The translations under genes and the position numbers were made by a program. A stretch of 64,000 bases of DNA from Daphnia pulex. Taxonomy: Eukaryota; Arthropoda; Branchiopoda; Diplostraca; Daphniidae. Under the pieces are notes generated by a model. It had not been told where the DNA came from and ran no database searches. It worked only from the letters and a program-made list of their open reading frames with translations. Positions 7,729 through 33,105 of this stretch are shown here, in pieces (within the stretch, counting starts at the first letter, position 1; every line of letters begins with the position of its first letter). The stretch is taken from the NCBI RefSeq assembly GCF_021134715.1, contig NC_060025.1:310001-374000 (forward strand). The letters are read 5' to 3'.

Positions 7729-9470
7729 TCAGTTGCGACCGATTCGAGTAATATCTAACAAGGGAGACAATTCGCCATACTCGGCCAATAAGAACTGCGG
7801 GATTCCTCGTTGAAAAGGAGCCGTGTTGGTGAAGTTTCCATCTAGTTGGATGATCCGACTTGAAAATTCAAGTTGTAACGTGTGATTGAGACAGCGAGTG
7901 TTCCTGGAACTCCCCCACAGAAGCGAAGACGCCATGGTTGCACCTAATCCATTGAGTCTCCACGTTAGAACGCGAAAAACGTCCAGGTGCTTGTTGCGTG
8001 TCAGAAACGAGCGGATTTGCTCAACGTCCCAGTCCAAATGACCTAGCTCCAGTCGACTAAGATTCGGTAAGATTGACACCAAATGTTCCAGTTGGGGCGT
8101 CATTAAAGGGGTGCGGAAAATTTGAAGGTTTTTCAGTTGACTCTTCCCAGACGTCCGGCGTAGTTCACAGACGTGTTCAAATAGTTCAAAACGCTCGAAA
8201 CTGCATTCGTAGAAAACGAGCGATTCTAGGGCTGGGCAAAAGATGAGCAATTTTTCGAACCGGGTCCATTCCATATCTTGTGCTTCAACCAGTTGTAGAC
8301 ACCTGATGGTCATCCCGTTTCGTCGTAGAAAGTCTTCAAAATGAATGTCTAGCGATCCACCGCGAAAGTTGACACTCAACAGCGTCAATTTAGGCAAGAA
8401 GCCCAAGGTTTGAACGCTGTAAGTGAATGCACTGTTGAGCGAAAGCCATTCAACTCCGGGGCACATTTGCGACAGCAATTCGAGATGTCCGGGAGTGAGG
8501 AGATCCGTTGCTCCGAAGGCGACTGTTTTCAATGCAAACTTGGGAGAGACGGCTGCGTTAACGGAGCAGTACCACAATGTATCGGCTATGCTGTCGTAGA
8601 GTAAAACGCTCAGAGAAGGCAAACCATGAAGCAGCAGAGCCGCACCCGGTGGACTGACTTCAGTCTTCAACATGATGACGGTATGAAGGCGTCGACAACA
8701 AAGTAACCAAGCAATTCCTGTAGAAACATAACAAAATATTGGCTTAAAATGGATTGGAAACAATTCAATTTGTCGTAAAATACGAACCAGTGTTGGTGAC
8801 ACCAGTGTCATTCAATACGATGCTCTCCAAATTGGGGCAGTTTTGACCCACAACTGCAATGACTGAATCATTACACTGTTTGGGCAAGGCCAACACTCTC
8901 AACCTTCTTAGATACTTGAGGATATGACAGAGAATCCCTTGAGTAATGACAGATTGGTCTGCTCTTTCCATGTACAATTCAGTGAGATTTGTGCAAAGGG
9001 GTAGTGTCAAAATGGCAGCAATTGTCACCTACAAAAAATAAAATAAAACGTGATTTACATTTTTGACTATTTTTAGTGGTTAAAACATTTACCTGTTCAA
9101 GGCAAAGGGGCATCACAAGTATCTTTAGGTTTCTTGGAATAAATGAACCGACGTAGACCAATAACTGTCGTCCAACCCTACTTTGTTCATAAACCACGTC
9201 TATGGTATTCAACATCTGAACAACGAAATCATCCACAAGATTGCTGGGTATTTTGTTGGTGATGCAATCTCTGGCTGCTTTCATGATTTCATCTGAGCTG
9301 GCACGATGAATCTTCTCTGGGGAGTCATGTAGTCTGTGTAGTGTGCAAACTGCCCAAAAAGCAGTAGCTTGAAGACTCAGCTGCTTAAGGCTTAATACAT
9401 TAAGTCCGTAATGAGGTTGAACTAAACATCCTTTCAAAACACGATGCATGAAATCTGATTCAAGTTGCAT
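7729..9470 (-). CDS. Leucine-rich-repeat protein (F-box/LRR-like C-terminal architecture)
   Basis: Three minus-strand exons join in frame: 9470-9093, 9028-8788 and 8717-7729, coding about 535 aa. I chose the ATG at 9470; the codon further upstream in the same frame is TTG. The N-terminal about 125 residues are helical and end near PRNLKILVMPLCLEQ. Leucine-rich repeats with LxxLxL spacing follow (for example LTELYMERAD, LRRLRVLALP, LPKLTLLSVN, LPNLSRLELG). The pattern resembles LRR proteins that act as substrate adaptors or binding scaffolds, but I see no clear F-box and do not recognise the orthologue. It is convergent with dlg. Confidence 0.75.
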
Positions 9471-10135
9471 TTTCAAACAAGGCAATCTGCTTAGATATAA
9501 AATGACTGCTCAACACATTCTCCCAACACAACTTATGCTGTATACTCTTACAACACAAACGAAGGCATGCCAAATTAAGTCAAATCACATCAACAACAAA
9601 GAACAAAACGTATATGTTTGTGTAGATCTGTCAGACGAAAGCGCTCCACAGCGGAAAATAAAGGAATTACATCGTTTTTTAAAAACCCGAATGCACTTTT
9701 TTCACGGAATCTGGCATCGATGTGCAAAATTTCTGACTTCTATTTAGTTTCTCGATGATCTGGGTAGGTTGCAGGTCCACTGATTCTCCAGCTCTAAAAA
9801 GATAGCGTTTTAAACTTCAGCCACAGATAAAGACCACTTTATTGTCTTCTTAATCTATGCTTCAGCCAATAGTTGGCGTTTATCAGAAAGAGTTTTTTTT
9901 TTCCAATTTTGCGTTTTCCATGCAATATAATTCTTTATAATATTGGACACATTGCCACGTAAGTTGTTTCTTTTAGTTTCAACAAGACTTTAATAATATT
10001 TAAAAAAGAAATTCTAATGTCTGGGGTTCTACCCATCCATCCATCCTTGATTCCTTTCCGTACAGTCAAAAGTGGTAATTAAACGTGGTAATCGTGGAGG
10101 AATCTTTTGGCTCCGTCAGTAGGTGGCTACCCAGC
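9471..10135. promoter_or_regulatory. Likely shared upstream region of the LRR gene and a plus-strand transcript
   Basis: No convincing ORF. The stretch separates the minus-strand LRR gene from a possible plus-strand spliced transcript starting near 10.13 kb. It is AT-rich with poly-T at about 9893-9902 and a short CCATCCATCCATCC run near 10033. No TATA box stands out in either direction. Confidence 0.3.
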
Positions 10136-11500
10136 CGCCAGATGACGCGAGTGTCTTTGAGAGGACGAAATTTTCGCCATTTTGTTCCGAAACGCCAAGT
10201 GAAAAGGTGAAAAGGTATTCCAAATTCGTTACGGAATTGCGGTGTCGATCTACATTTTCAGCATTGAAATTTAATGGTAAATTCTAGTTTGGATTTCTCA
10301 AATGTAATTAATCCTAGACCCTGTGTCCTCCTGTGTGAATTTACAGGCAATCTGGCATATTATTTCCACTTGGCCAAATAATCGATCACGTGGACTGAAA
10401 CTGCGTTCCATTTTGCCGAAATGTCGTCGGTTGTTAGCTGTACCTGTTCAAGTGCACGTCTCATCTCATGCAGAAACACTACATAGGTAGTAGAGTAATT
10501 TTGTTGATCAATTTCCCTGCAATGATGCTATAGATTTTATTAGTTGGTGTTCAGGTTGGAGATCCCGTTGCTCAACTGTTGCAGAATGTGAGAACTCAAC
10601 AAATTCTTAGCTCCATGGCTGGCATCATGGCCACAGTGGTTTTGTTGCAGCCAGCTGGTGAAAGGTGTGATCGAGTCAAGTTGAGCTGCAGCTGCTGCAT
10701 GCATTTTATTGAGCTGGTGTTATCCTGTGAAGTGTCATTGCAGGAAGACTTTTTGAAATGGTAAGTTAATTGAATGTATTGGGTGTAACTTGGGAAGTCT
10801 TGCATCTTTTCTTTTTTTTTTTAAATTCAACTGACAAGTTAACTCTGATCTTATGTAGACAATAAGTGGTGCTATTTCTGGCTTCCAACTAATAGTTTCT
10901 GTGAAAGATATCAGAGATAGCGATCAGCTTCCTTTGAGTTAACAACTTTCTTCTGCTCAAACTAGAATAAAATTTCCACTCTGTATTGCAAACTTTTTCT
11001 AACACTTCAGAATAAGATGTACAGCATTCTCTTTTCCTAGGATTTAATCTTCATTTAAAATTTCAATTGCCAATGGAATCTTGGAAAAATGTCTGATGTT
11101 GTTTGTTTTACACGATTTCTTTTGCATCTTAAGTTTGATCATGGAAAAATAATATTCCTTTTTCCCCATAGGACTTGGTGATACTTAAAGCTATGCCTAT
11201 GCTGTTCAATGTACAGTGGTTTTGCAGCTTGTTTCCAGTTGAGAGATGTCATTATGCAGCTGATACAGGATTGAAGAAAAAGAACTGAAGTAGCTGTGCT
11301 GGAGTTCTCCTGAAGTTGCTGTGCCACAGGAGTTGCAAATAGTGTTTGGTTCTTCATATAAGTTTATTTAAAGAGTAAGGAGATGATCATCCACTTCTGA
11401 CTATAATTTATGTAAAACTTCAAAGTTGTAAGAAATATACAAGTCAAGTGCTTAACATGATTTTATTATAAATTTTAAGACACAGCAAACAAAAAATTTT
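10136..11500 (+). ncRNA. Candidate spliced transcript, coding potential weak
   Basis: Good plus-strand splice sites define possible exons: one ending at about 10206 or 10214, then 10347-10486 and 10555-10760. The only ATG in the second exon (10421) gives 21 codons and stops at the exon edge. The third exon is open throughout in one frame but has no start linking to it. A segment at 10635-10690 resembles one at 14740-14800 (shared GTTGTTGCAGCC-type core and a GGTGAAAG-like word), suggesting duplication. The balance favours a non-coding RNA or gene remnant. Confidence 0.3.
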
Positions 11501-11584
11501 GAAAGGAATTGCTTTATTGTCCCACCTCCACCCACAATTCCACCACATTTTACAATCACATATACATACATACACTTAAGTTAA

Positions 11585-11792
11585 CCCGTTGGCTGCCACG
11601 CCATACAACCCGTAGGTTCTCTACTCTCTACGCGCCATGTCTGAAAGATCCATGACCAAGGTGGGACTTGCCATTGCTGACAAGTCTGGGCTGACAGGGT
11701 GACAGGAGAAGATGGAATGCACGCCATTAGGAGGCCTCTAGGAGGCCCGTGCTAAGGAGGTAGGGGAAAACAAAGGCGTGGCAGACAACGGG
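11585..11792. mobile_element. piggyBac-type MITE (208 bp) with TTAA duplication
   Basis: The element starts CCCGTTGGCTGCCACGCC and ends with its inverse, GGCGTGGCAGACAACGGG, differing at one position. It is bounded on both sides by TTAA (11581-11584 and 11793-11796). TTAA target duplications plus CCC/GGG termini are the signature of piggyBac-superfamily elements. There is no ORF, so it is non-autonomous. Confidence 0.85.
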
Positions 11793-12075
11793 TTAACTAA
11801 CACAAACAACAACAAAAATATTACCAACAACAAATGATGATCCGCGCTGACATTTTGGAGATAACGGAGATGTTTTGGTGTCCATCTTCTCTACGTCTCC
11901 TCTGCATTGCCTGAATAAAGACAAAACAATTGTTATTAAGTGAAATGCCAATAAAAGTTACATAATACAGATAGAAACAGTCAGATTTCAGTAGTCAGGT
12001 TTTTTAGCTCAAAGATTTAAAGATGCAATTTTTTAAACTTATAATCAAGCATGCAATATTGAGAATTGTAAACTG

Positions 12076-12465
12076 AACAAAGCTCACTTGCTAGTTTTTT
12101 GAAAATTTTCCGGAAGTATACCGGAAGTGACCACAGCGCCTCAACCATTGAGCTGTCGACAAATTAAACCACATATTCGTGATCTCCATGAAATTTGGGG
12201 TCGATTAGGTGTGATTTAAACGAAATCCAAAATTTGGCCAAAATCGAGAATTTTCCTGAACTATAGTTCAGGAAAATTCTCAAAACCGGAAGTACGAAAA
12301 CGTACAAAACAAAACATGAACTTTACCACAAATTTGACGAGGATCACGAATTTGTGGTTCTTTTGTGCGTGGAATGATTATTTACTGAACTACTGACAGA
12401 AATGAGAAAACCGGAAGTAAAAAAAAAATAACATAATATTACAAATCTAACAAGTGAGCTTTGTT
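12076..12465. mobile_element. MITE-like repeat, copy 1 (390 bp) with central palindrome
   Basis: Terminal inverted repeats of 15 bp (aacaaagctcacttg and its complement) bound the element. The centre is a perfect dyad, cctgaactatagttcagg, extending into AT-rich arms to about 12249-12280. CCGGAAGT words recur in both halves and orientations. A second copy, split by a retrotransposon, lies at 17845-18029 plus 22517-22722. Similarity between copies continues past the right terminus (about 12480-12620 versus 22735-22860), so this may be part of a larger repeat. No target duplication is obvious. Confidence 0.65.
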
Positions 12466-13791
12466 GGGGGAATAGTTATCGTCAATGTGCACTAAAAAAT
12501 TTCTAAACAACAGCTGCCGAAAACTTTTTAAAGAGATTTTAAAGTAACTGAAACTGACTGTTTTGACAGCTGACAATTATCGAAAAGCCATCTAGCGTTA
12601 GAAAAAAAACGTCAAGTAACAATACGTTTGCGCGCAAGTAGGGACTGATTTCGAAATTATTATAGACACAAGTAAGTGTAATATTGGAATAGATAATCTA
12701 CGAAAAAAAGTTAATTGTCGGGTACCTGGGCATAATCCCGTGGTGAGTGACTGCAGGTGTGTAACAGAGGCACGGAAGCGACGGCTGAAGTGTTCCAACT
12801 CTTCAGTGAAGCAAGACAAGTTGTATTTTTGTGTACGACGCGATGAAGCAGAAGCTGGAAAAGTTTTCGCCGGGAAGATAAGGATGGAACAGAACGTTGT
12901 TCATGGACAAAAGCCAGCGTTGGCTCAAGAATATCCGTGCCAGGACCACACGATTCCACAAAGAAACTGCGTTCTCTGTAAAAAAAAATGTTTTACATTA
13001 ATGAAAATATAAAAATGAATAAAGCATATCAATCTTTACCTTTTCTTAGAAGCACACTGAAAAGTTCATGATGACAAAACCGTGAAAATGGAATTTACAG
13101 CAACCAACAGCATTACTCCACATGTTGAGATAAATTTCCTGATGCTAAAGAAAGTGTCATGAAGTATTGCAGTAGCGTGGTGATAGGTGGTTCACTTCAC
13201 ACTCTTCATGTCACTGAAACTCTAAGGGGAAATGGGACAAGGAAATTCTCTACGTTATTTACAAATTAACACAAATTTACCTGTAAGAAATTTAACTCTA
13301 CCTATCTCTTAGCTGGGTTGCCTTCTAAACCAAAGTAAAATCAGCAGAAACAACAAACATGCTGTTGCAGGGTACACCACCAAAATTGCGAGATTCAGAA
13401 AAGATCCTATCGTCCATAAGCAAGAATACCTATGTTATGTGAAAATCTGAATTGTAATGATCTGGTAGCAGTAATGGGGAAATACCTTATCTCGGCACAT
13501 TTATGTTCGACTATATGTGCTCTTCAAACATGAGTTTTAGGCTTTGACAGCATGAGATCTAATGGATGGAAATTGATTGAGCACTAAGTCAAGTAGTCAA
13601 CTTGTTGGAATGACTGACAGTAGGCATCTAGAATTTGAAGAAATAAGTTGGTACAGTATAAAAATAAGAAAAATAGGTAAAGATAAACCTACATAAGATA
13701 CGAAGTAAAATTTGGTATTTGAAATCACAGGAATAAGTATAAATTAGCAACAATTTGTTTCGCTCATTTCGCCTCGTTTCAGTGTTTCACC
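12466..13791. other. No clear gene; repeat flank and possible spliced remnants
   Basis: The first about 150 bases resemble the flank of the second repeat copy at 22.7-22.87 kb. From 12740 to 12976 one plus-strand frame is open but lacks an early ATG and ends near a possible donor. The minus strand has a competing open frame. I see no domain in either and no supportable gene. Confidence 0.4.
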
Positions 13792-14083
13792 ATGAAAGAA
13801 CAACATCGACGACACTGGCGACATCTAGTACGAATTTTGAATAATGCACAGTTAGTCACAGACAGACATGGAGACAGTCGCTCTTTTCAGAGCCTGATTG
13901 AAGTGATTGACGAATTCGGTAAATTGGTCCACCCATTAATGTGTGAAGTTCCCTTGATGGATTTAGTCGTAATAATTTAAAAAAAAAATTGTTTTTGTTG
14001 TAGGCACCATGTTTTTGGCTGAGACACGAATTTTGATGCTGAAAGACTTGGAAACCATACTGTCGACCACGTCGAGAAGCTGA
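13792..14083 (+). CDS. Possible small two-exon protein, 68 aa, unknown
   Basis: An ATG in good context (TTTCACCATGAAA) opens exon 13792-13918, which ends at a GT donor after one base of a codon. The acceptor TTGTTGTAG leads to exon 14004-14083, which restores the frame and ends in TGA. The product is basic at the N-terminus (MKEQHRRHWRHL) and then amphipathic-helical (SLIEVIDEF, ETRILMLKDLETIL). Without splicing the frame runs on 20 codons. It sits in a repeat-rich stretch and I recognise no family, so it could be chance. Confidence 0.35.
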
Positions 14084-15342
14084 GTAACATTCTGCTTTTA
14101 CAAAGGTAAAATTAACAATTAAACTGATTGAAATATATGTGGATCATAACATTTGTAATGTTTGAATGCAGGCACCTCTTAATAAAAGGAACTTAAGCCA
14201 TCCAATATAGGACTTTCATCAAATCGTGCAGGCTGCATGGAAGTCACATTTACCTTTGCTGTGAACATCATGACCACACACTATTTGAAGGTGACAATCT
14301 TATCCAGTTATAGAGTTTACAATTAAAATGTGATTAAGCTTTGCATTCATTGGTTAGTTTTAACATTTTGGGTTTTCGTCAAGTCAGCAGCTATTTCCTT
14401 CAGGGTTGTTTTCTGTTATGGATTATTTAAGTGGGGTTTGTTGTATGCAAGAAAGGCAGATTCTGAAAGAAGTTTTGTTCATTTGTTCCACTTTAGAGTA
14501 TCCTTTAAAGTTTAAATGAATTTGTATTTAAATCAGTCATCTAGTTTCATGTAAGTTTATTAATTTAAGTTTCCATGATAGGTATAAGATAATGTTGCCA
14601 TATAATATTTGGGTTGAATGAATATTTGAAGTGATATGTAGCATATTTTTTTAAAATTTCATACAGCATTTCCAATGAAGCTGAAGATTAATTTTACTTC
14701 GTTTATAGGTTCATGTTTACGTAGCAGTGGTGTTGCTGTCCAATGTGGCGTGTTGTTGCAGCCTATGGTGGTGAAAGATATCTGCATCAAGTTGCTGTTC
14801 CTTGTGCATCCGAGGTGCTGGTTTTGTGCTACAGAAGTGACATCCAATATTGTGTTTAATTGCTATTTGTGTCTTTGCAGTTTACCTTTATATATTGAGA
14901 AGTAACAAAAAAATAGTAACACAGGGAGGTTTATGTCAAACAAATAATAAACATGTCCAGGATGGGGGAATGAGGAGGAAGTTGGGGTGGGGTATTTGGT
15001 TATGAATTACTAAAAGAAGTGAGGTATATTTTTAATGAATATGCAGTACTTGGTGATAAAATCTGTTGGTAACATATACCTTCCTGTCATCCTATACCTT
15101 CCCCACTTACACATCCATTCCTCAAACCCCATAAGCACCAGCATCAAATCCCACATCCATTCCTAAAACCCCACAATCTCCAACATCAAATTCACACAAT
15201 TGTTGTATATCTATAATAAAATTTATATTGAAATAAATAAAACGCCATTGTCTATAAATTGTGTAAATTATATAATAATTCCGGAACACATGCAAAATAA
15301 ACAATTCATTAAACAGAGCGTCCGGTTCAATACATTTTTTTT
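14084..15342. other. No supportable gene; AT-rich with a short tandem repeat
   Basis: Low-complexity AT-rich sequence. A segment near 14740-14800 resembles 10635-10690. A two-copy tandem repeat lies at 15110-15193. No ORF has domain features. Confidence 0.4.
15110..15193. repeat. Two-copy tandem repeat, unit about 42 bp
   Basis: Both units begin ACATCCATTCCT, continue through an AAACCCCA core, and end with a CATCAAATYC word. Copy 1 is 15110-15151 and copy 2 is 15153-15193, with a few substitutions. Confidence 0.6.
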
Positions 15343-15864
15343 TGTGCGAGGCTTTTTAGAAAGCAATCCGTCACCCAATTTGACAAAAAGTGATAGTTTG
15401 TTTTCACGGAAATTGCGTCAGACGGTAAAAAAAATTTCTAGTTTAAAAAATCTCATGTAAAAATTAGCATCTAGTCTACTGGTGCAAATTGCGATTCTTT
15501 AAGCTTGATTAATTTAGATGATGTGTTAAAAGCTATTGTGGGTAGCTAAAAAATTGAACTAATCCACTTTTTCTGAATATTTGGTTTTAGATCACTTTGT
15601 TGTTTTTGGATTCTTGTGATCTCTCTTCAAAATATTCTGAAAAAGCGAATCGGTTCAATTTTTTAGCTACCCACAATAGCTTTTAACACATCATCTAAAT
15701 TAATCAAGCTTAAAGAATCGCAATTTGCACCAGTAGACTAGATGCTAATTTTTACATGAGATTTTTGAACTAGAAATTTTTTTACCGTCTGACGCAATTT
15801 CTGTGAAAACAAACTATCACTTTTTGTCAAATCTGGTGGCGGATTGCTTGCTAAAACTCGCACA
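15343..15864. repeat. Long fold-back element (522 bp inverted repeat)
   Basis: The left arm from TGTGCGAG at 15343 is matched by its complement CTCGCACA ending at 15864. Arms of about 235-245 bp are near-identical, with scattered single changes such as CACGG/CACAG, over most of their length. They enclose a loop of about 45 bases at 15588-15630, which itself has an inner AGATCAC/GTGATCT stem. There is no ORF. This is typical of a fold-back or hairpin-type MITE. If transcribed it would form one long hairpin. Confidence 0.85.
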
Positions 15865-15952
15865 TGCAGTGTCGGCGTAGATCCAGGGAGATTACCTGGA
15901 AATGGAAGAGGAGAGAAGAGTGCGAGGCAAGTTTTACTGGGGAGCGATTAGT

Positions 15953-16026
15953 CATACTAGGCTTCCGGGTTAGACTCATGACCCTCAGATCATGCGCCTT
16001 CCAAGTCCCCGTTCGACCAGAGCCCT
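15953..16026 (-). other. tRNA-like remnant or SINE head (weak)
   Basis: Read on the minus strand, the segment has a tRNA-like middle, GCATGATCTGAGGGTCATG, resembling an anticodon arm, with a degenerate B-box-like word GAGTCTAACCC after it. The acceptor and T stems do not pair well, so it is not a working tRNA. It lies just outside the fold-back and could be the head of a tRNA-derived SINE. Confidence 0.2.
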
Positions 16027-16337
16027 CCCCTCCTCCTGGTTTCACAGCGGGTGAGTGACCACCGGCGGGCGTTGGTTAGTGGTTAGTTAGGGAAACGGGG
16101 CCACAGAAAAGAAGGGAGCCCAGAAATACTGTACACTTGTAATTTAATCTAACTACGCAATTTATCAGTCTTGGATTACATCATTCTCTCGTCGGTTTTC
16201 AGTTTCACGGAGTCCATGATCAGTAGTGAAGGATTACCCTGTAAGCAGAACCAACATTTAATCTGGATGACAATAATTTTCAATAAGATTGTAGCGACAA
16301 AAAGCAATACTTCAAATCAAGAGGGACTGTGTAAGAA

Positions 16338-17330
16338 GCTAATAGGGAGATTCAAGGGTAGCAGCCATTGGGTTAGCAAACTAGGGACCTTGACACCTTG
16401 TTGACTTTTTTGAAATAACATAACTTTTCATAAAGTCTGTCATGCAAATTTAGGAACCTGAAGGTTAGAACCTGTAAATAAAAAAATGTTTTAAAAATAA
16501 GTAAAAGAATAATTAAACAGTTTTAAGTATATACTCACGCAATATTTTTCTCGCCAAAATCACCATCTCGTCCAAGGAAACGCCATCACACATCGCGAAC
16601 ATCCAAAAATCTAAAGGGTAAAACTCCGTGCTATGTTGACAGCAGGGTAGTAGAAGCCGATTGGGTAGTCGAATGATGCTGGCCGCCTAAATGATGTTCA
16701 TGTAGGCCGCATCTTCTCGGTCATTACCTAATGCTTTAATCAAGAAACAAAATGTAAACAAAATTTAAATTTAGTGACATGACAATGAAGTTACACAGGT
16801 AACACCAATCAGCTTTCCTAAGCAATCCAGAAGATGGAATGAGTCAAGTTCGATGACAGAACGAATGATCCGCGTTCAACGTGTGGCCATTGCCTTATTT
16901 TGGAGGGATAACCAGATGCCCCACTTTGGTCTTATAGGCAACATCTAAATAAGAAACAAAACAATCGTTAAAATTGCTATTAGTATGACAACTTTTCTAA
17001 ATTCAATGTAAACACAACTTACAATGATGATAGCATGATCACAATATTTAACCTCTTTTTGTTGTTGTTGACAAATAGGGAGATTCAAAGGGTAGCAGCC
17101 AAAAACGGGTTAGCAAACAAGGAATCTTGTTGACTGTGAGTCCTTTTTCTTGAAAGGAAATAACTTCTCATTCAGTCAGTCATGCCAAATTAGAAACCTG
17201 TAAATAAAACAAAAATTCATATTAGACTGCAATTAATAAAGTTCAGTAACATGACAAGTGAACTTACACATGAAACCACCAATCAGTTATCAAAGATTCT
17301 CTAGAAGATGGAATGAGAGTCCATGTTGGG
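16338..17330 (-). pseudogene. Decayed, duplicated exons of an unidentified multi-exon gene
   Basis: Minus-strand exon-like blocks are bounded by recognisable splice sites. The best, 16548-16727, keeps one open frame over its last 48 codons (including EFYPLDFWMFAMCDGV and SLDEMVILARKIL) but has a TAG near its start. The next block, 16338-16475, follows a TTTATTTACAG acceptor and is duplicated at 17076-17197. The segment 16780-16870 matches 17250-17330. A related open block lies at about 25096-25240. The pattern indicates partial tandem copies of one gene that have decayed. No family recognised. Confidence 0.45.
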
Positions 17331-17870
17331 GTCGGTGATCTAGCAAGTTCAATAGAAACAGCCAATAATTAAGATTAACCCTAATGAAACATGAGAAGAA
17401 TATATGTTTTAGCATGAAATAAAGCTAGTGTTGGTTTTTACGTGTCATTTCGATGACACATTCAGTAGAATACAATGAGTATGAACAAAATAGTTGACGG
17501 TAGGGGTAGGCTACACGACTTCCACGTTTCCTCTGACTGTAAGTTGATGAAACACATTAAGGTTATCCAACATGTAAACGGAATAGAACACATCACCGAC
17601 AAGTTACAGACGAAATCACTCGAATTTACCTATGAATTTATTGGTAATTTTCAAAGAAAAGATAACTTAACTTTTGACAGCAAAACGCCATGGGCCCATA
17701 ACTGACACAACAATCAACACGCCATCTATTTGACACGTCTCAAAACTCAGTATTTGAAGGACTGGTCTTAACATACCCATAAAACTTGAAAAGCGCATTT
17801 TTGATCGCTTACACCTAGCTTGAAATCTTGAGAGCAGTACAGGGAACAAAGTTCACTTGCTAGTTTTGTG

Positions 17871-18029
17871 AAAATTTTCCGGAAGTGGACCGGAAGTAAG
17901 CAATAGCGCCTTAACCGTTGAGCTGCCGACAAAATAAACCAAATATTCGTGATCTCCATGAAATTTGGGGTCGATTAGGTGTGATTTAAACGAATTCCAA
18001 AATTTGGCCAAAATCGATAATTTTCCTGA
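17871..18029. repeat. Target-site duplication, left copy (159 bp)
   Basis: Identical base for base to 22358-22516, starting AAAATTTTCCGGAAGTGG and ending GATAATTTTCCTGA. Both copies share variants that differ from repeat copy 1 at 12 kb (for example GTGGACCGG versus GTATACCGG). They are therefore duplicates of one locus, not two independent repeats. Confidence 0.9.
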
Positions 18030-21000
18030 GACATAGAGCTGTATTTCACGACGGCGTGACAAAGACATATCATTATAAGAGAGTAGTAGATGAACGATGG
18101 GGAATATCAATTGACTAGGCGAAGGTAGACGAGAGAATGAACAATGGAAATAATATGCAGAGCGATGAAAAACGAGATATAAAACACTACGATGCAACGA
18201 TACAGAACAGGTTCATGCAATACAATACATGCCATGTAATTACATGCAAATCCATTAAGGAGCCGGAATATTGGCTTCCTGGTCATCCCCATGTCCGCGG
18301 ATGTGGCGATGAATGATGGAGACAGATCCCTGGATGGCCATCAGACGGCACTTCCTCCGGAGGCGGCGCCAAGGAGCCGGGGGGATGTTGAGGGCGACGG
18401 CCACTGCGTTGTTTGAGGGGAGCCAGGATCCCAAGGCGCCAATAACGAAGGGCAGAGTTAACCCCAGGCAGCTGTATTTCTCTATTTTTCTGGCATGGCC
18501 GGCGTCGAGGGACTCGGGAGCGTCGAAGGTGATGGTGAGATCAATTATTGTTGGTGGGTCGGTCGAGGAGATGACTATGTCCGGCCTCAGGGTTGAGCCA
18601 GGGAAGACTCTGTTGACAGACGCTGCATGGCCGGCCCTGGTGATGGTTTTCACAATTTCCGCCAGTACGAGGTCGTGTCGGCGGCCAATGGCCGGAAGAT
18701 TACTGCGGCAGTGGCTGGTTACGTGAGAGGTAGTTTCGGCATCAACCTTGCATCTCCTGCACTTGGTGTTGGGAGCAGAGCAACCAGGATTCCCGAGGAG
18801 CGGAAGCAGGCCGAGGCGGCTCTTGTGGATGAGATTCCACTCGTTGAATGAGAGGCAGGTCCGATGAGATGAGAGGCGGGCAATGTCGTTAGATGGGTCG
18901 AGTAGTAGCCCCCTTGCTACCCTGCCCTGATGCAAGGCATTTGTGAGGGAGATTGTCCAGCGTTTCCGGATGACAGAGCGGAGGCCCCTTACAGCTTTCA
19001 GCGAGAGGCAGGAGACGTCGTCGGCGATCACTTTGGTCGATTCATCGCCGGATACATCGATCCTAACTTCAAGTCTTCGTGCTGATTTCCTGGCACGGGA
19101 CCAGGTATTGGAGCCACACCTGTAGAAACGGGTGTCGTGGAGTCCGCCTTCTACCGAACCAGAGAGGTAGTTAGAGAGGGGCAGCGGATCAGGCGGCTTG
19201 CCGTTGAATCCCCTGGAGATGTTTTGGCTGAGCTGGGCTCTGGCAGTGAGGCGGACCACCGGATCGTTGCTATCGAGGAGTTGAGCGGCACGAGCGATGA
19301 TCCAGATGTCCGAGTCTTTAGCCAGTTGAGAGGCACCTAAGCCGCCAGCCCTGCGATCGGAATAGAGGAAGCCATTATGTGCAGTGTGGGGGACGTTGGC
19401 CACGAAACGGAGGAATTCGGCACAGCGAGCATCCATCTCGTCGAGAAAACCGCGAAGGACCCTCCCTGTGGCGAGATGGTGAGAGAGAGACGGCAGTAGG
19501 TGGGCTCTGTAAACCTCCAGTTTTTGCCAAGGAGCCAAGTCTGAATCGGCGACCTTAGTCAGCTTGTCGGGCAGATCACAGACGGGTCGAAATGTTAGAC
19601 GAGTGCCCATGGGGACTCCTAAGTAGCACTCGCTCTCACCTTCCTCCAAGCAGCGAAGAGAGGTGCCATGAATGTGCAGGAGAGATGAGTTGGTGGCCTT
19701 ACCCTTGGACAGGGAGAGGAAAGAGCATTTTGCGACGTTGAACCTGAGCCCAAGTTTCGCTGCCACAGCAAGCATGGCGTCAAGAGTAGGCTGAAGCTGA
19801 TCAGGAGAGGATCCGATGAGGGCGACGTCATCCGCGTAAGCAGTGGCCTTCAGCAAGGAGCCGAAGAGAGTAAAGCCATGGTTGGTAGGAGCCTTGGCGC
19901 AGCGGATGAGGGGCTCAGCGGCAAGGTTGAATATGATGGAGCTTAGCCCATCTCCCTGACGGACACCGGACGTGGGTTGAATGGTGACCAGTTCCTTGTT
20001 GACAACAAACTGGAAGATGCTGTTGGTGTAGATGTCAGTGAGGATGTCACGGAGCTCTGTCGGGATCGGAAGACTCTGAAAGAGTTGATGGAGGAAATCG
20101 TGGGGGAGCGAGCCAAAAGCGTTGGCAAGGTCAAGCCAGCAGATGGTAAGTCGGCTTTTCTTGAGCTTGGCCTGTTCGATGGCCGATTCCAGCAGCATGG
20201 TGTGTTCTTGTATTCCATGGACCCCAGGAAGGAAGCCCTTCTGCTCCAATGACAACCAGTCATTGTCGGACGCGACTGCGGTAAGGCGGGATGCAATGGA
20301 GCTCGAGAAGAGCTTGTATATGGTGGAAAGCAGAGAAATGGGCCTGAAATTGCCGTAGTCGTCAGTAGGGCCTTTCTTGTATACCGGGATGGTGCGAGCC
20401 GATTTCCAACAGGCAGGAATGCCGTAGAGCCAGACCGCAGCGTAGAGGAGCTCGAGCAGCCGCCCAAATGGGTCCAGACGGAGAATGTCTTTGTATTCGA
20501 CGCCGTCAGCTCCAGGAGAAGTATTGGAGGCCCGTTTGAGCTTGTATGCGACCTCCTGGCTCGATGGTGGAAGAGAGAGCAAGGAGAGGTCGTCATCGGA
20601 CAGAGGGGCCCAGGAGCATGCGTCGTACGCGGCTTTCGCTACCATGACGTCCGCTTCCGGAGGGCGAGGCTGCTCATAGGTGGCCTTGAGGAAGAGTGTG
20701 GCGGAGTCAATGGAGCCGGTGTAGCACTGCGATGTCTCGCCCAGAACCTTGCGTACGGCCCTCTTCGGGTATCTTTTGAAGAGAGCTTGGAGTTTGCTGG
20801 CCGCCTCCCATCGCTTGGCATTGTTCTTCTGACGGATTCGCTGTTGTTGCCTGGACTGATGCCTATTCGTGTTGGACCTTTGAGGTGACGTACGTGGAGG
20901 ACGAGGAGGTCTGGAGGCCTCACTGCTAGGTGGGTCGTCCTTTGAAGTGCGTGAGTGCCAGTCGGCAGCGAGATCAGATGCGATCGTGTCCAACTCCGTC

Positions 21001-22357
21001 CTGGAGGAGCACTCGACGATTATGGGAGCCCAGTGTTCGTAGAAGAGGTTGGCAGGAGATGAACCGTCTTCATCGTCAGGCAAGCTGCCGTCCAGATCGT
21101 CTACTCCTAGTTCAAAGGAGGGACTGGAAGCGCCGGAGTTCATGGTAGGCGAAGTCACGAGAGGAGAGTGAGGCGAAGAAGTTGGCTGGTGTGGAACGAC
21201 GACAGGGCCTTGGTGAGGATCGCATGCTGGCAGATTGATGGTAGGTGGAACAGGAGCTCGTCTTGTCGCTGGAGGCGTTGGCTGTGGCCTAACGTGTGAA
21301 GGGAGAAGAGCCGGATGTGGAGCATCAATGCCTGCCAGTGGGAAGTTATCCGTAGGAGTGATGGTGGGTGGAGCAGGGACTCGTCTGGGCCTGCCAGGTC
21401 GCATCGTGGGAGGAGAACAGCCCGGATGTGGAGAGGGGATCCAGGAATCATCCCCTGTCTTACTAGAGGATGTGTGCTCAGGCGACTCGTAGTAGTTTGG
21501 CGGAGTAGTAGAAGGAGCCGGTGTAGCAGAGGCGGTTCCCGGAGAGACGCTGCCGGCCGCTTCCACCAGGGCACCGTGCTTTTCGGCCCGTTTAGCAGCC
21601 GCGCGGATGACGGATGGGTAGCATTGCGTGGAGCAAAACTTCTTGTTTTTGTTGTGGCAGATGAAGGATTTGCTACAGGCGCTGTTGGCACAGGCTCTCT
21701 CCATGTTGGCGTGAAGGTAAGATGGTCGTGACGTGTCGTACGATCCCGCACGGTTTCTTCTTCTCTTTTACGGTTACTTCATTGGCTGGCATCAGGGGCT
21801 GGAGTGTCCAATACGCTAGCTGTGCCACGATGAAAAAGCCAGATGGAAAATTGCCGTATGGATCTGTAAGCTTTGAAAGAAAAGAAAGACAGCTGGCGCC
21901 TCGCTGGTCAGTGAGTTGTAAATGGCGTATAAATTGTCTTGCCCAGAGCTGGAAGAAATATTGAGAATATCAAGAATGTCAAATATGGGATGCTTCAGCT
22001 GCTTGCATTGGCCTTCGCAGTTGATGTTCCCAAACAATCAATTTCGACGACTCAAGTCCAGTCTTCTTATGCACGCGAAACACCGTACAGCGATACCCCG
22101 GTAGCAGCATCCATCTAGTGGCGTTGTTGGAGTTCCGAAGAAGTGAGTGCCGGCCACCTGGCGGAGGAATTTTGAAGCTCGAGCCGTATCGTGGTGTAGT
22201 AGTGCGAGATCGGTACATGCAAGATAATGAGTGATGAGTAATGAGTATTAAACTGATAGGGTGGATAAAGGCAGGCCCAGAATTTTGAATCTCGGCGGTT
22301 GCTTTTTTATTTTTATCTCTCGGCTCACACACACACACACACATTCAAGGCAGGCCC
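18030..22357 (-). mobile_element. RLE-type non-LTR retrotransposon, apparently full length (4.33 kb)
   Basis: This minus-strand element has a 5' region of about 650 bp (22357-21705), one 1149-codon ORF (21704-18255) and a 3' region of about 225 bp with no poly(A) tail at the junction (18030). The 5' end reads GGGCCTGCCTT followed by a TG run, and the same GGGCCTGCCTT recurs about 80 bp further in, so the 5' end may be a tandem or template-switch repeat. Its termini abut the two copies of a 159-bp duplication. A single ORF with reverse transcriptase, CCHC and a C-terminal restriction-like endonuclease places it in the R2/R4/NeSL/Hero group. Confidence 0.88.
18255..21704 (-). CDS. Retrotransposon polyprotein: reverse transcriptase plus restriction-like endonuclease, 1149 aa
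   Basis: The single ORF starts at ATG 21704. A Cys-rich N-terminus (Cys 5, 10, 16, 24, 28, including KKFCSTQC) resembles a small zinc-binding module, unlike the C2H2 fingers usual in R2. Residues of about 50-290 are Pro/Ser-rich. Reverse transcriptase motifs follow in order: SPGADGVEY, PVYKKG with NFRPISLLST, CWLDLANAF, SGVRQGDGLSS, AYADDVALIG (YADD at 623-626) and YLGVPMG. A CCHC motif (C982, C985, H993, C998) is spaced C-x2-C-x7-H-x4-C. The endonuclease core RPDIVIS (PD at 1041-1042), IIDLTITFD and the downstream KIEKY are intact. No stop or frameshift interrupts it, so it may be active or recently inserted. It would nick its target and prime reverse transcription there. Confidence 0.92.
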   Translation of the reverse strand: MERACANSACSKSFICHNKNKKFCSTQCYPSVIRAAAKRAEKHGALVEAAGSVSPGTASATPAPSTTPPNYYESPEHTSSSKTGDDSWIPSPHPGCSPPTMRPGRPRRVPAPPTITPTDNFPLAGIDAPHPALLPSHVRPQPTPPATRRAPVPPTINLPACDPHQGPVVVPHQPTSSPHSPLVTSPTMNSGASSPSFELGVDDLDGSLPDDEDGSSPANLFYEHWAPIIVECSSRTELDTIASDLAADWHSRTSKDDPPSSEASRPPRPPRTSPQRSNTNRHQSRQQQRIRQKNNAKRWEAASKLQALFKRYPKRAVRKVLGETSQCYTGSIDSATLFLKATYEQPRPPEADVMVAKAAYDACSWAPLSDDDLSLLSLPPSSQEVAYKLKRASNTSPGADGVEYKDILRLDPFGRLLELLYAAVWLYGIPACWKSARTIPVYKKGPTDDYGNFRPISLLSTIYKLFSSSIASRLTAVASDNDWLSLEQKGFLPGVHGIQEHTMLLESAIEQAKLKKSRLTICWLDLANAFGSLPHDFLHQLFQSLPIPTELRDILTDIYTNSIFQFVVNKELVTIQPTSGVRQGDGLSSIIFNLAAEPLIRCAKAPTNHGFTLFGSLLKATAYADDVALIGSSPDQLQPTLDAMLAVAAKLGLRFNVAKCSFLSLSKGKATNSSLLHIHGTSLRCLEEGESECYLGVPMGTRLTFRPVCDLPDKLTKVADSDLAPWQKLEVYRAHLLPSLSHHLATGRVLRGFLDEMDARCAEFLRFVANVPHTAHNGFLYSDRRAGGLGASQLAKDSDIWIIARAAQLLDSNDPVVRLTARAQLSQNISRGFNGKPPDPLPLSNYLSGSVEGGLHDTRFYRCGSNTWSRARKSARRLEVRIDVSGDESTKVIADDVSCLSLKAVRGLRSVIRKRWTISLTNALHQGRVARGLLLDPSNDIARLSSHRTCLSFNEWNLIHKSRLGLLPLLGNPGCSAPNTKCRRCKVDAETTSHVTSHCRSNLPAIGRRHDLVLAEIVKTITRAGHAASVNRVFPGSTLRPDIVISSTDPPTIIDLTITFDAPESLDAGHARKIEKYSCLGLTLPFVIGALGSWLPSNNAVAVALNIPPAPWRRLRRKCRLMAIQGSVSIIHRHIRGHGDDQEANIPAP

Positions 22358-22516
22358 AAAATTTTCCGGAAGTGGACCGGAAGTAAGCAATAGCGCCTTA
22401 ACCGTTGAGCTGCCGACAAAATAAACCAAATATTCGTGATCTCCATGAAATTTGGGGTCGATTAGGTGTGATTTAAACGAATTCCAAAATTTGGCCAAAA
22501 TCGATAATTTTCCTGA
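22358..22516. repeat. Target-site duplication, right copy (159 bp)
   Basis: Perfect copy of 17871-18029. Its right edge runs straight into the rest of the MITE-like repeat (ACTATAGTTCAGG), which shows where the uninterrupted repeat was cut. Confidence 0.9.
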
Positions 22517-22722
22517 ACTATAGTTCAGGAAAATTTTCAACACCGGAAGTACGAAAACGTACAAAAAAAATCATGAACTTTACCACAAATTTGACGAGGA
22601 TCACGAATATGTGGTTCTTTTGTGCGTCAGATGAGTATTTACTGAACTACTGACTGAAATGAGAAAACCGGAAGTTGAAAAAAAAAATCAATTTTTCAAA
22701 AATCTGACACTTGAGCTTTGTT

Positions 22723-24049
22723 GCTGATTCAATAAATGTTAGTCTTCACTAAAAATACCATATCAGCAACTGCCGATAAATGTTTTAGAGATGTGTAAAG
22801 TAAATCAAAATAACTGCAGAAAATTATGCAAAGGTAAGCCGTCTAGCGTTAGAAAGAAGAAATGTAAACAATCTCCGCTTTCGGTCACGTACACTTAAAT
22901 AAGAATAAAAACATCAGAAACATCAATGCTTACGCAATATTATTTTTACTGAATCATCACCTTCTAATCACCAAGAAAACCACACATCACCAACAGCCAA
23001 ACACTGAACTTCAAATACTTAGTTGGTTACCAAGACACCGTCATCACACATCACAAACTGTCGTCTCAAGCAAGGTTCAAAAAATAATTTTACACTCTTT
23101 ACTTGAAGCGTTTTGACTTTTCACGAGTTGTATTAACTGAAACTGCCCTGCTGACTGAACAAAACAATTAAGCTTAGAAGTATGCTTACAAGACAAAAAA
23201 CAAAACATTCGGGGTTGCCACACAAAATCCTAAATTTACATGCAAAAATTTAACAGAATTATCAGAATATTCAGAATTAATAATTGAATCAGAGTGATTG
23301 AATCTTTGAACCGGATGTGAAATAATTAACAATAAACATGAGAAAAACCTTGCTTTTGAATTCAATTCGAATCCGGAAATGTTACAATAAATCAAAATGT
23401 AAAAGTACAAACAAGAAAGCGTTACAAGGCAAAATTAGCAGAATCTGATTCGATGGCGATTATCAGAGTCCAGAGGGTCAGCAATCTTTTGAGAAACATT
23501 TGGGTGATTCCGCTCTAAAGTTTTCGTTCCTTTTCATCCGAGGTGCCGAAATGAACCCACAGCGTGAGCGATTTTTGGAAGATTGCCTTATAATTCGTTC
23601 TTGTTTTTTCTATTGCACCTAGTTTTGAAGGTTCTGGGTTTGACTCCTATTCTCTTCTCATGTCCCCCTCCATGTTATCTCCTACCATTTCCCATGACTG
23701 TCTGTCTGTGAATAACGTAACCATGCATATAATAAATAATAACCTAAAACAAACTAACCTAACTAAACAATCTAACTAAATATTACTTACTCTTACGTAC
23801 ACTAATGTCCTGTAACATTTAAAAGAAAACAAAACACCCCTGAGATACACAGACCAAGGTAAACGTGGGACAATCTTGTACGCCGTTGTTTCTCGAGCGT
23901 TGTTACTGCTGTAATAGACCGATAAATGAGAGATGGCAAAACCTGAATGGAAAACCTTTTAGTTTTTTTTTTTTTTTTTTTTTGTTGCGAAGGCAATAAA
24001 TAAATTAAAATATTCTGATAAAGCAATTACCGAAGCGTAGTACTCTTAC
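22723..24049. other. Repeat flank, one decayed exon block and low-complexity DNA
   Basis: 22735-22860 matches the flank of repeat copy 1. 22938-23050 (minus) has a donor-like GCAATATT|GTAAGC edge region and words shared with the decayed exon at 16548-16727, but it is broken. A T-run lies at 23963-23983. A B-box-like word, GGTTTGACTCC, at about 23636 hints at a SINE fragment. No gene supported. Confidence 0.4.
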
Positions 24050-32670: not shown

Positions 32671-32932
32671 TAGAGCCATTCAGTACGTTGGAGAAGATGG
32701 CAACGAAAACTTCTACACACTGGACCGCTACCCTCCATGGTTGAATAAAAAAATGCAGATGTTTGTTAAATTTCGGGAGTACATGCAACAAGATAAATTA
32801 ATCAAAGCTAATGGCTCCGTCGAGTCCGTCCTTCAAAGAGAAAACGAAAACCTTGTTAGGATATCATTACTTAGGCAGTGGTTGCAAACCTCACATGCCA
32901 TGGTAATGCATCTCGCCAACGGCATGTTACAG
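32671..32932 (+). pseudogene. Stray duplicate of a polo-box exon
   Basis: After an intron-like flank ending AG, the segment encodes AIQYVGEDGNENFYTLD, KKMQMFVKFREYMQQ and QWLQTSHAMVMHLANGM, then a CAG|GTAAATC donor. This matches the penultimate coding exon of the polo-like gene at 36500-36746 ([34 protein letters not shown]) including both splice sites, so it was copied at the DNA level. The frame is open but no other PLK exon is beside it. Confidence 0.75.
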
Positions 32933-33105
32933 GTAAATCATATTCCGAATATGATATTTACAGGTAACATGCCTTTGGCGAGATGCATTACGATGGCCTG
33001 TGAGGTTTGCAACCACTGCCGAAGGAATGGTAGCCGAAAAAGGTTTTCATTTTACCTCGGAACTTGGACGGACTCGACGGAGCCACCAGCTTTGATTAAT
33101 TTATC
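32793..33105. repeat. Near-perfect palindrome made of two inverted polo-box fragments
   Basis: The left arm 32793-32945 and right arm 32947-33105 are inverted copies around TCATATTCCGAATATGA with a one-base centre. Both arms carry the second half of the polo-box exon and share features absent from the gene at 36.5 kb, such as CCGTCGAGTCCGTC, so they are closer to each other than to that gene. The outer edge GATAAATTAATCAAAGC supplies the TAA stop of the Tyr-rich gene at 33101. RNA read from that gene into its 3' flank would fold into a hairpin. Confidence 0.85.

Follow-up and report, generated by a model that had tools for sequence, protein, structure and literature searches.

Insertions of a putative Utopia-related RLE non-LTR lineage at the palindromic centre of a dispersed repeat in Daphnia pulex, with an apparently fixed first nick and a variable second end

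The window (the whole analyzed stretch of 64,000 nt, a part of contig C9 of Daphnia pulex) contains an intact 4.3-kb RLE-type non-LTR element on the minus strand (18030-22357), assigned here to family A. Comparison with related copies in the same genome makes it probable that the element belongs to a Utopia-related RLE non-LTR lineage targeting the palindromic centre of a dispersed repeat. As the 3' junctions share one base of this repeat, and the opposite ends are accompanied by duplications and losses of various lengths, the first nick is evidently fixed and the second end is variable. We regard the case as real, well replicated and unusual: the element is of a known kind, its target is new, and its second end behaves in an unusual way.

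The ORF of the window element encodes a reverse transcriptase domain (Pfam RVT_1, E 1.1e-26), and its best solved relatives by sequence are R2 proteins (E 2.4e-50), whose C-terminal part is aligned with residues 974-1145 of the ORF in a second stretch (20.1 bits, E 0.00094). The C-terminus carries motifs that we take to be a CCHC motif and an RLE-type motif, the latter corresponding to a predicted PD..D/ExK-type endonuclease, as in other RLE-type elements. The dN/dS ratio is 0.19-0.25 between the window ORF and three other open family-A copies, two of which (L047 and L051) are nearly identical to each other. These data agree with the initial annotation, where the element had been described as an RLE non-LTR retrotransposon with a single ORF, intact over 4.3 kb and flanked by a perfect 159-bp target-site duplication: the two flanks are identical at 159 of 159 positions and first differ at base 160, counted back from the junction.

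The window element and its closest copy, L046 (98.5% protein identity), do not share the terminal ~77 bp of the window element's 5' end (22281-22357), so one of the two copies has extra sequence there; in the window this stretch looks like filler. A ribozyme at the 5' end was considered and rejected, as Rfam produced no match at E up to 1 in L064, L068 and L047, and only three weak non-ribozyme matches in window positions 10000-23500 (E 0.69-0.87, far under the gathering scores). Two of these three are microRNA models placed on the palindrome itself.

Table 1. Coordinates of the element, its flanking duplications and the target repeat in the window.
Feature	Position	Strand	Details
RLE non-LTR retrotransposon, family A	18030..22357	-	3' end at 18030, 5' end at about 22280-22357
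Single ORF, 1149 aa	18255..21704	-	N-terminal Cys/His cluster, RT 443-669, C-terminal CCHC and RLE-type motif (presumed)
Target-site duplication, copy adjoining the element 3' end	17871..18029		First nick after 18029
Target-site duplication, copy adjoining the element 5' end	22358..22516		Identical to 17871-18029
Intact 26-bp palindrome restored beside the element (TTTTCCTGAACTATAGTTCAGGAAAA)	22508..22533		332 exact copies in the genome
Filler-like stretch, element 5' end	22281..22357		(CA)n and a second copy of aaggcaggccc
Uninterrupted 36-bp perfect palindrome	12246..12281		Nick-equivalent position between 12259 and 12260
Nested dyad module of the target repeat	12076..12465	+	Inverted arms of 23, 35 and 18 nt, 91, 83 and 100% complementary
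Window copy of the target repeat	10034..13870	+	Sharp left edge; other copies extend further right

The searched genome comprises 133.19 Mb in 13 contigs. A DNA search with the element 3' end gave eight copies (all eight candidates were scored), and a protein search, where the best 40 of 658 candidates were scored and more diverged copies lie outside the sample, gave at least 44 matches. The C-terminal end is reached by 27 of these 44, the junctions of the other 17 falling outside the sample, as do two matches on C8 (at 3312 and 4394239). Junctions were read for 22 of the 27 C-terminal-complete matches (six from family A, eleven from B, one from D, two from E, one from F, and one unplaced), for two further A copies found by the DNA search only, and for family C within one stretch of its array. 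With an array of B copies on C12 and a duplicated pair of E copies counted once each, and family C excluded, this amounts to 21 independent loci (A 8, B 9, and one each for D, E, F and the unplaced copy). The E copies (L098-L101, at C3:3.50 and 3.64 Mb) represent one segmental duplication with flanks 97-98% identical, and one of the two lacks most of the target repeat; the locus at C3:3.64 Mb was thus withdrawn as an insertion outside the repeat.

In 19 of the 21 independent loci (surveyed in families A, B, D, E, F and the unplaced copy) the element 3' end is at the same base of the repeat, between CCTGA and ACTATAGTTCAGG. All eight family-A copies have left flanks ending with TTTTCCTGA at the identical repeat base, and all 17 loci of families A and B are at the palindrome of the target repeat. 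Distal flanks of these 17 loci differ (the best pair has 91.9% identity), hence the insertions are independent. The 3' junction base common to all eight family-A copies is more than chance. The exceptions are family F (C7:3.79 Mb), whose 3' end is at CCCTGA without a recognizable repeat, and the locus at C5:1.84 Mb, with no target site. Since the 3' end is joined to ...TTTTCCTGA of the repeat in 19 of 21 loci, the primer of reverse transcription would be the 3' OH from the nick after CCTGA, which lies four bases from the dyad centre (cctga/acta.tagttcagg, with the nick at the slash) and not three, as was initially counted. The initial placement of this nick inside a palindrome, in a dispersed repeat and not in rDNA, is thus confirmed at 19 of 21 loci, and other copies, which had been named as a possible source of refutation, use a target that is not random; the part of the same prediction that concerned a duplication of about 159 bp fares worse, as its length varies and is sometimes short.

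Elements at 16 loci are oriented one way on the palindrome and at three loci the other way, the latter all belonging to family B (C1, C4, C12). Family A has a single orientation at eight of eight loci, which suggests that its protein may read more than the symmetric core of the palindrome. The terminal 3' letters are alike in families A, B, D, E and F (RCATAGA..., then ...CATGACAACG in B, E and F). A common 3' structure is likely in these five families.

The uninterrupted form of the target is found in the window in the nested dyad module (12076-12465), as initially described; folded as single-stranded DNA, the module has z = -8.3, with none of 100 shuffles as good. The target had also been called MITE-like, and this finds no support, as the 390-bp module is a part of a longer repeat: homology continues beyond both its ends in all 30 loci of the comparison, which took those with the highest scores and counted the window copy among them. 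A conservation profile of 30 repeat copies was left out of account, since choosing them for their likeness to the module makes it biased. The repeat is over 3.8 kb long and has no discrete ends at short terminal inverted repeats, as a MITE would have. Its left edge is near window position 10034, where 21 of 54 matches start within four bases, and on the right side other copies run past the edge of the window copy (among the best 40 of 265 and the best 40 of 350 candidates). Inspection by eye revealed no transposase-like ORF in the window repeat copy or in the inverted pairs of this repeat. These pairs form palindromic doublets of ~4 kb (L053-L057; C9, C7), five of which were read, their arms being 93-98% identical over most of their length, with 82-83% stretches in one pair.

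The genome count of the 26-bp palindrome includes the copies restored beside elements, and the reversed pattern occurs zero times. On C2, among the places listed (C1, C2 and part of C3), the palindrome occurs at 0-6 and 12.2-13.2 Mb, with none between. The window also contains long self-inverted repeats at 15343-15864 (about 520 bp, 88%) and 32792-33105 (about 310 bp, 85%), and, to the left of the target repeat, a 360-aa open frame (7729-8811, minus strand) with a leucine-rich look by eye.

Perfect duplications ending at the nick were found at 10 of the 19 loci, their lengths being 159 (window), 595, 105, 42 and 23 bp in family A, and 1284, 629, 371 and 17 bp in family B, with 829 bp for the whole C12 array. 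Hence roughly one in two of the insertions examined was accompanied by a duplication of adjacent DNA. Each duplication is specific for its locus and starts exactly at the element 5' end, and an intact palindrome is present on the right side at all ten loci. Five duplications (L047, C1, C5 at 8.9 Mb, C2 and C12) reach outside the 390-bp module; the weakest one is the 23-bp case, as only about 30 bp of the repeat's right half are present there. At five loci target DNA has been lost, about 54-60 and about 160 bp in family A, and about 9, 34 and 40 bp in family B. At three more loci (A on C7, B on C10 and D on C2) the element occupies one arm of a large inverted pair and has the other arm as its right flank: a left-flank stretch is inverted on the right over 1781 bp for A on C7 and 979 bp for B on C10 (99.9 and 100% identity). 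Judging from other pairs, DNA between the arms would be missing at these three loci, and simple insertion does not fully explain them. At locus E the second end allows neither a duplication nor a loss call.

In the C12 array three B copies follow one another head to tail, two of them full and the third truncated at the 5' end, and neighbouring copies are separated by 186 bp of target as a spacer. Its outer flanks have 829 bp in common, which is the duplication of the array; the inner 186-bp value is a spacer and was rejected as a duplication, and a value of 1567 bp for the middle copy was dropped as an array artefact. In the simplest order of events, the truncated copy would have come first, with the 829-bp duplication, and a second copy would then have entered at the same nick, on the 3' side of the truncated one, with 186 bp, at a place where just half of the palindrome was left. 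Comparison over 1847 bp shows no difference between the two units, so that unit was probably doubled by unequal exchange.

Families A and B have 58% amino acid identity, and each of them has 49% identity with family C over more than 900 aligned positions. Apart from A, B, D, E, F and the unplaced copy, no relative closer than family C was found; in the same genome it resides in U2 snRNA genes, in tandem units ~8.87 kb apart with genes for U1, U2, U3, U4, U5, SRP RNA, 5S rRNA and tRNA alongside. One stretch of this C8 array, inside which the family C junctions were read (L073, C8:6949801-6955900), is a part of an ~8.87-kb unit with U1, U2, U3, U4, U5, SRP, two 5S and a tRNA gene, and a Utopia-like element in U2. 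The 5' side of family C follows U2 nucleotides 1-32, and on the 3' side U2 resumes at (A)TCTGTTCTTATC, about 38/39, with no duplication. These junctions are consistent with the Utopia site given in PMC4640811, which places arthropod Utopia at U2 nucleotide 39 with 'no target site duplications'. The same paper names Daphnia pulex among Utopia hosts and says that its authors did not find the family termini there.

Unlike family C, families A and B do not have the defining U2 target, all 17 of their loci being at the palindrome, so they are not classed as Utopia and are treated as relatives with another target. Neither are they in 28S rDNA, the target of the R2 clade. Taken together, A and B look like a Utopia-related lineage with a changed target; the direction of this change is our inference from a comparison within this genome only. 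By eye, the N-termini of A and B have one Cys/His cluster and that of C has several. Pfam gave no firm name for these clusters (zf-CGNR with E 0.0098, below the cut-off, in A; none in B; four weak matches in C), and a link between the N-terminal difference and the choice of target is a suggestion only.

The element end opposite to the nick is joined at positions ranging from 1284 bp upstream of it (giving a duplication) to about 160 bp or more downstream (giving a loss). In the preferred reading, only the first nick would be set by the element's protein. Once reverse transcription is done, the cDNA end would be attached to target DNA upstream or downstream of the nick, at any place where pairing or a jump is possible, and cutting or repair of the second strand would occur there, partly through the host. 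Since no motif and no general microhomology were seen by eye at the second-cut side, the manner of 5'-end joining is what we infer from the junctions. The intact target left by a duplication would permit repeated insertion, and long flanking duplications would make unequal exchange possible, as in the C12 array.

The initial annotation had explained the window duplication by two nicks about 159 bp apart. The window copy alone fits such a fixed stagger, with two sequence-specific nicks as in R9 (126 bp), which is refuted by nine other duplication lengths (from 17 to 1284 bp) starting from the same first nick and by the losses at five loci, and is extremely improbable. An assembly artefact or a later segmental duplication was likewise rejected: the loci were read from the assembly, but ten loci with ten lengths, each private to its locus and starting exactly at the element 5' end, leave this explanation hardly any probability. 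A second end made by the host and not by the element is a substantial possibility, if short of an even chance: a replication fork would run into the nicked site, or the site would undergo resection, and the cDNA end would become linked to sister or displaced DNA. Upstream landing would then produce a duplication and downstream landing a loss, consistent with the broad length spread in both directions, the absence of a second-end motif by eye and the filler-like stretch at the window 5' junction. For an unrelated LINE, PMC2666801 records one 1228-bp duplication in 25 wild-type-cell insertions, showing that events of this size occur; the other 24 had short alterations (20 bp or less), so something in this element or site must favour long ones.

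It is rather unlikely that the protein recognizes an extruded cruciform (a four-way junction) and not a linear sequence. The 36-bp perfect palindrome without a spacer, placed within a nested dyad, and the use of both palindrome arms by family B are in line with such recognition, and PMC6895275 reports cleavage of open four-way junctions by the R2 protein, whose RLE is similar to archaeal Holliday junction resolvases. On the other hand, family A is found in one orientation at eight of eight loci, an insertion in the C12 array apparently reused a half-site, and the relative in U2 has a site other than the palindrome. Still more doubtful is a LINE that finds its target by DNA shape, its RLE opening the extruded palindrome near the tip, with branch migration or unwinding leading to a second-strand cut over more than 1 kb. 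According to PMC6895275, the second-strand cut of R2 is made on an open four-way junction of cDNA and target DNA, and this model is extended to 9- and 13-bp duplications by local melting between the cuts. In the present case the opening would have to span as much as 1.3 kb, which makes host replication or repair a serious alternative.

The preferred reading, a fixed first nick at the palindrome followed by a second end of varying position, gives these insertions a wider meaning. One first nick is used by the well-sampled families A (eight loci) and B (nine loci) and by the single D and E loci, while the second ends of A and B vary widely in one genome that offers hundreds of intact sites for comparison. 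Second-strand processing, the least understood half of LINE integration, thus becomes open to study by natural variation, and the contrast between the U2 gene and the palindrome in relatives is a well-anchored case for how a LINE protein sets its target. If the shape-recognition reading were true, the target would be restored with each duplication, so that the element would not use up its sites. As to the new targeting strategy proposed initially, a palindromic repeat instead of rDNA is borne out as the target; transposons are already listed among known non-LTR targets in PMC4640811, so the choice of a transposon-like repeat is in itself no novelty. The titles and abstract openings searched, with much subscription literature lying outside this search, contained no report of a palindrome target or such a spread of duplications for an RLE element.

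Among known systems, Tx1L of Xenopus, which is specific for the transposon-like repeat Tx1D, resembles the window element in being a non-LTR element with such a target, but it is of the APE type, belongs to another clade and makes a short duplication. ZfL2-2 is also of the APE type and is not site-specific. The work on ZfL2-2 in DT40 cells (PMC2666801) offers a likeness in the 1228-bp duplication in wild-type cells and the long losses in Ku70-less cells, and a difference in that a long duplication is seen in only one of 25 wild-type insertions.

R9 of bdelloid rotifers shares with the window element the RLE type and a duplication above 100 bp. Its duplication has a single length of 126 bp (as cited in PMC6895275) and its target is rDNA, while the lengths found here range from 17 to 1284 bp. 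Utopia of the NeSL clade, as described in PMC4640811, is similar in its single ORF with an N-terminal Cys/His cluster, RT, C-terminal CCHC and RLE, in its precise 3' and variable 5' boundaries, and in the tandem insertions reported for the Nasonia family. The family C element in U2 differs from A in its N-terminal Cys/His arrangement, as seen by eye. The main differences from Utopia are the target, a palindrome here and U2 there, and the long duplications here, against none in arthropod Utopia according to PMC4640811.
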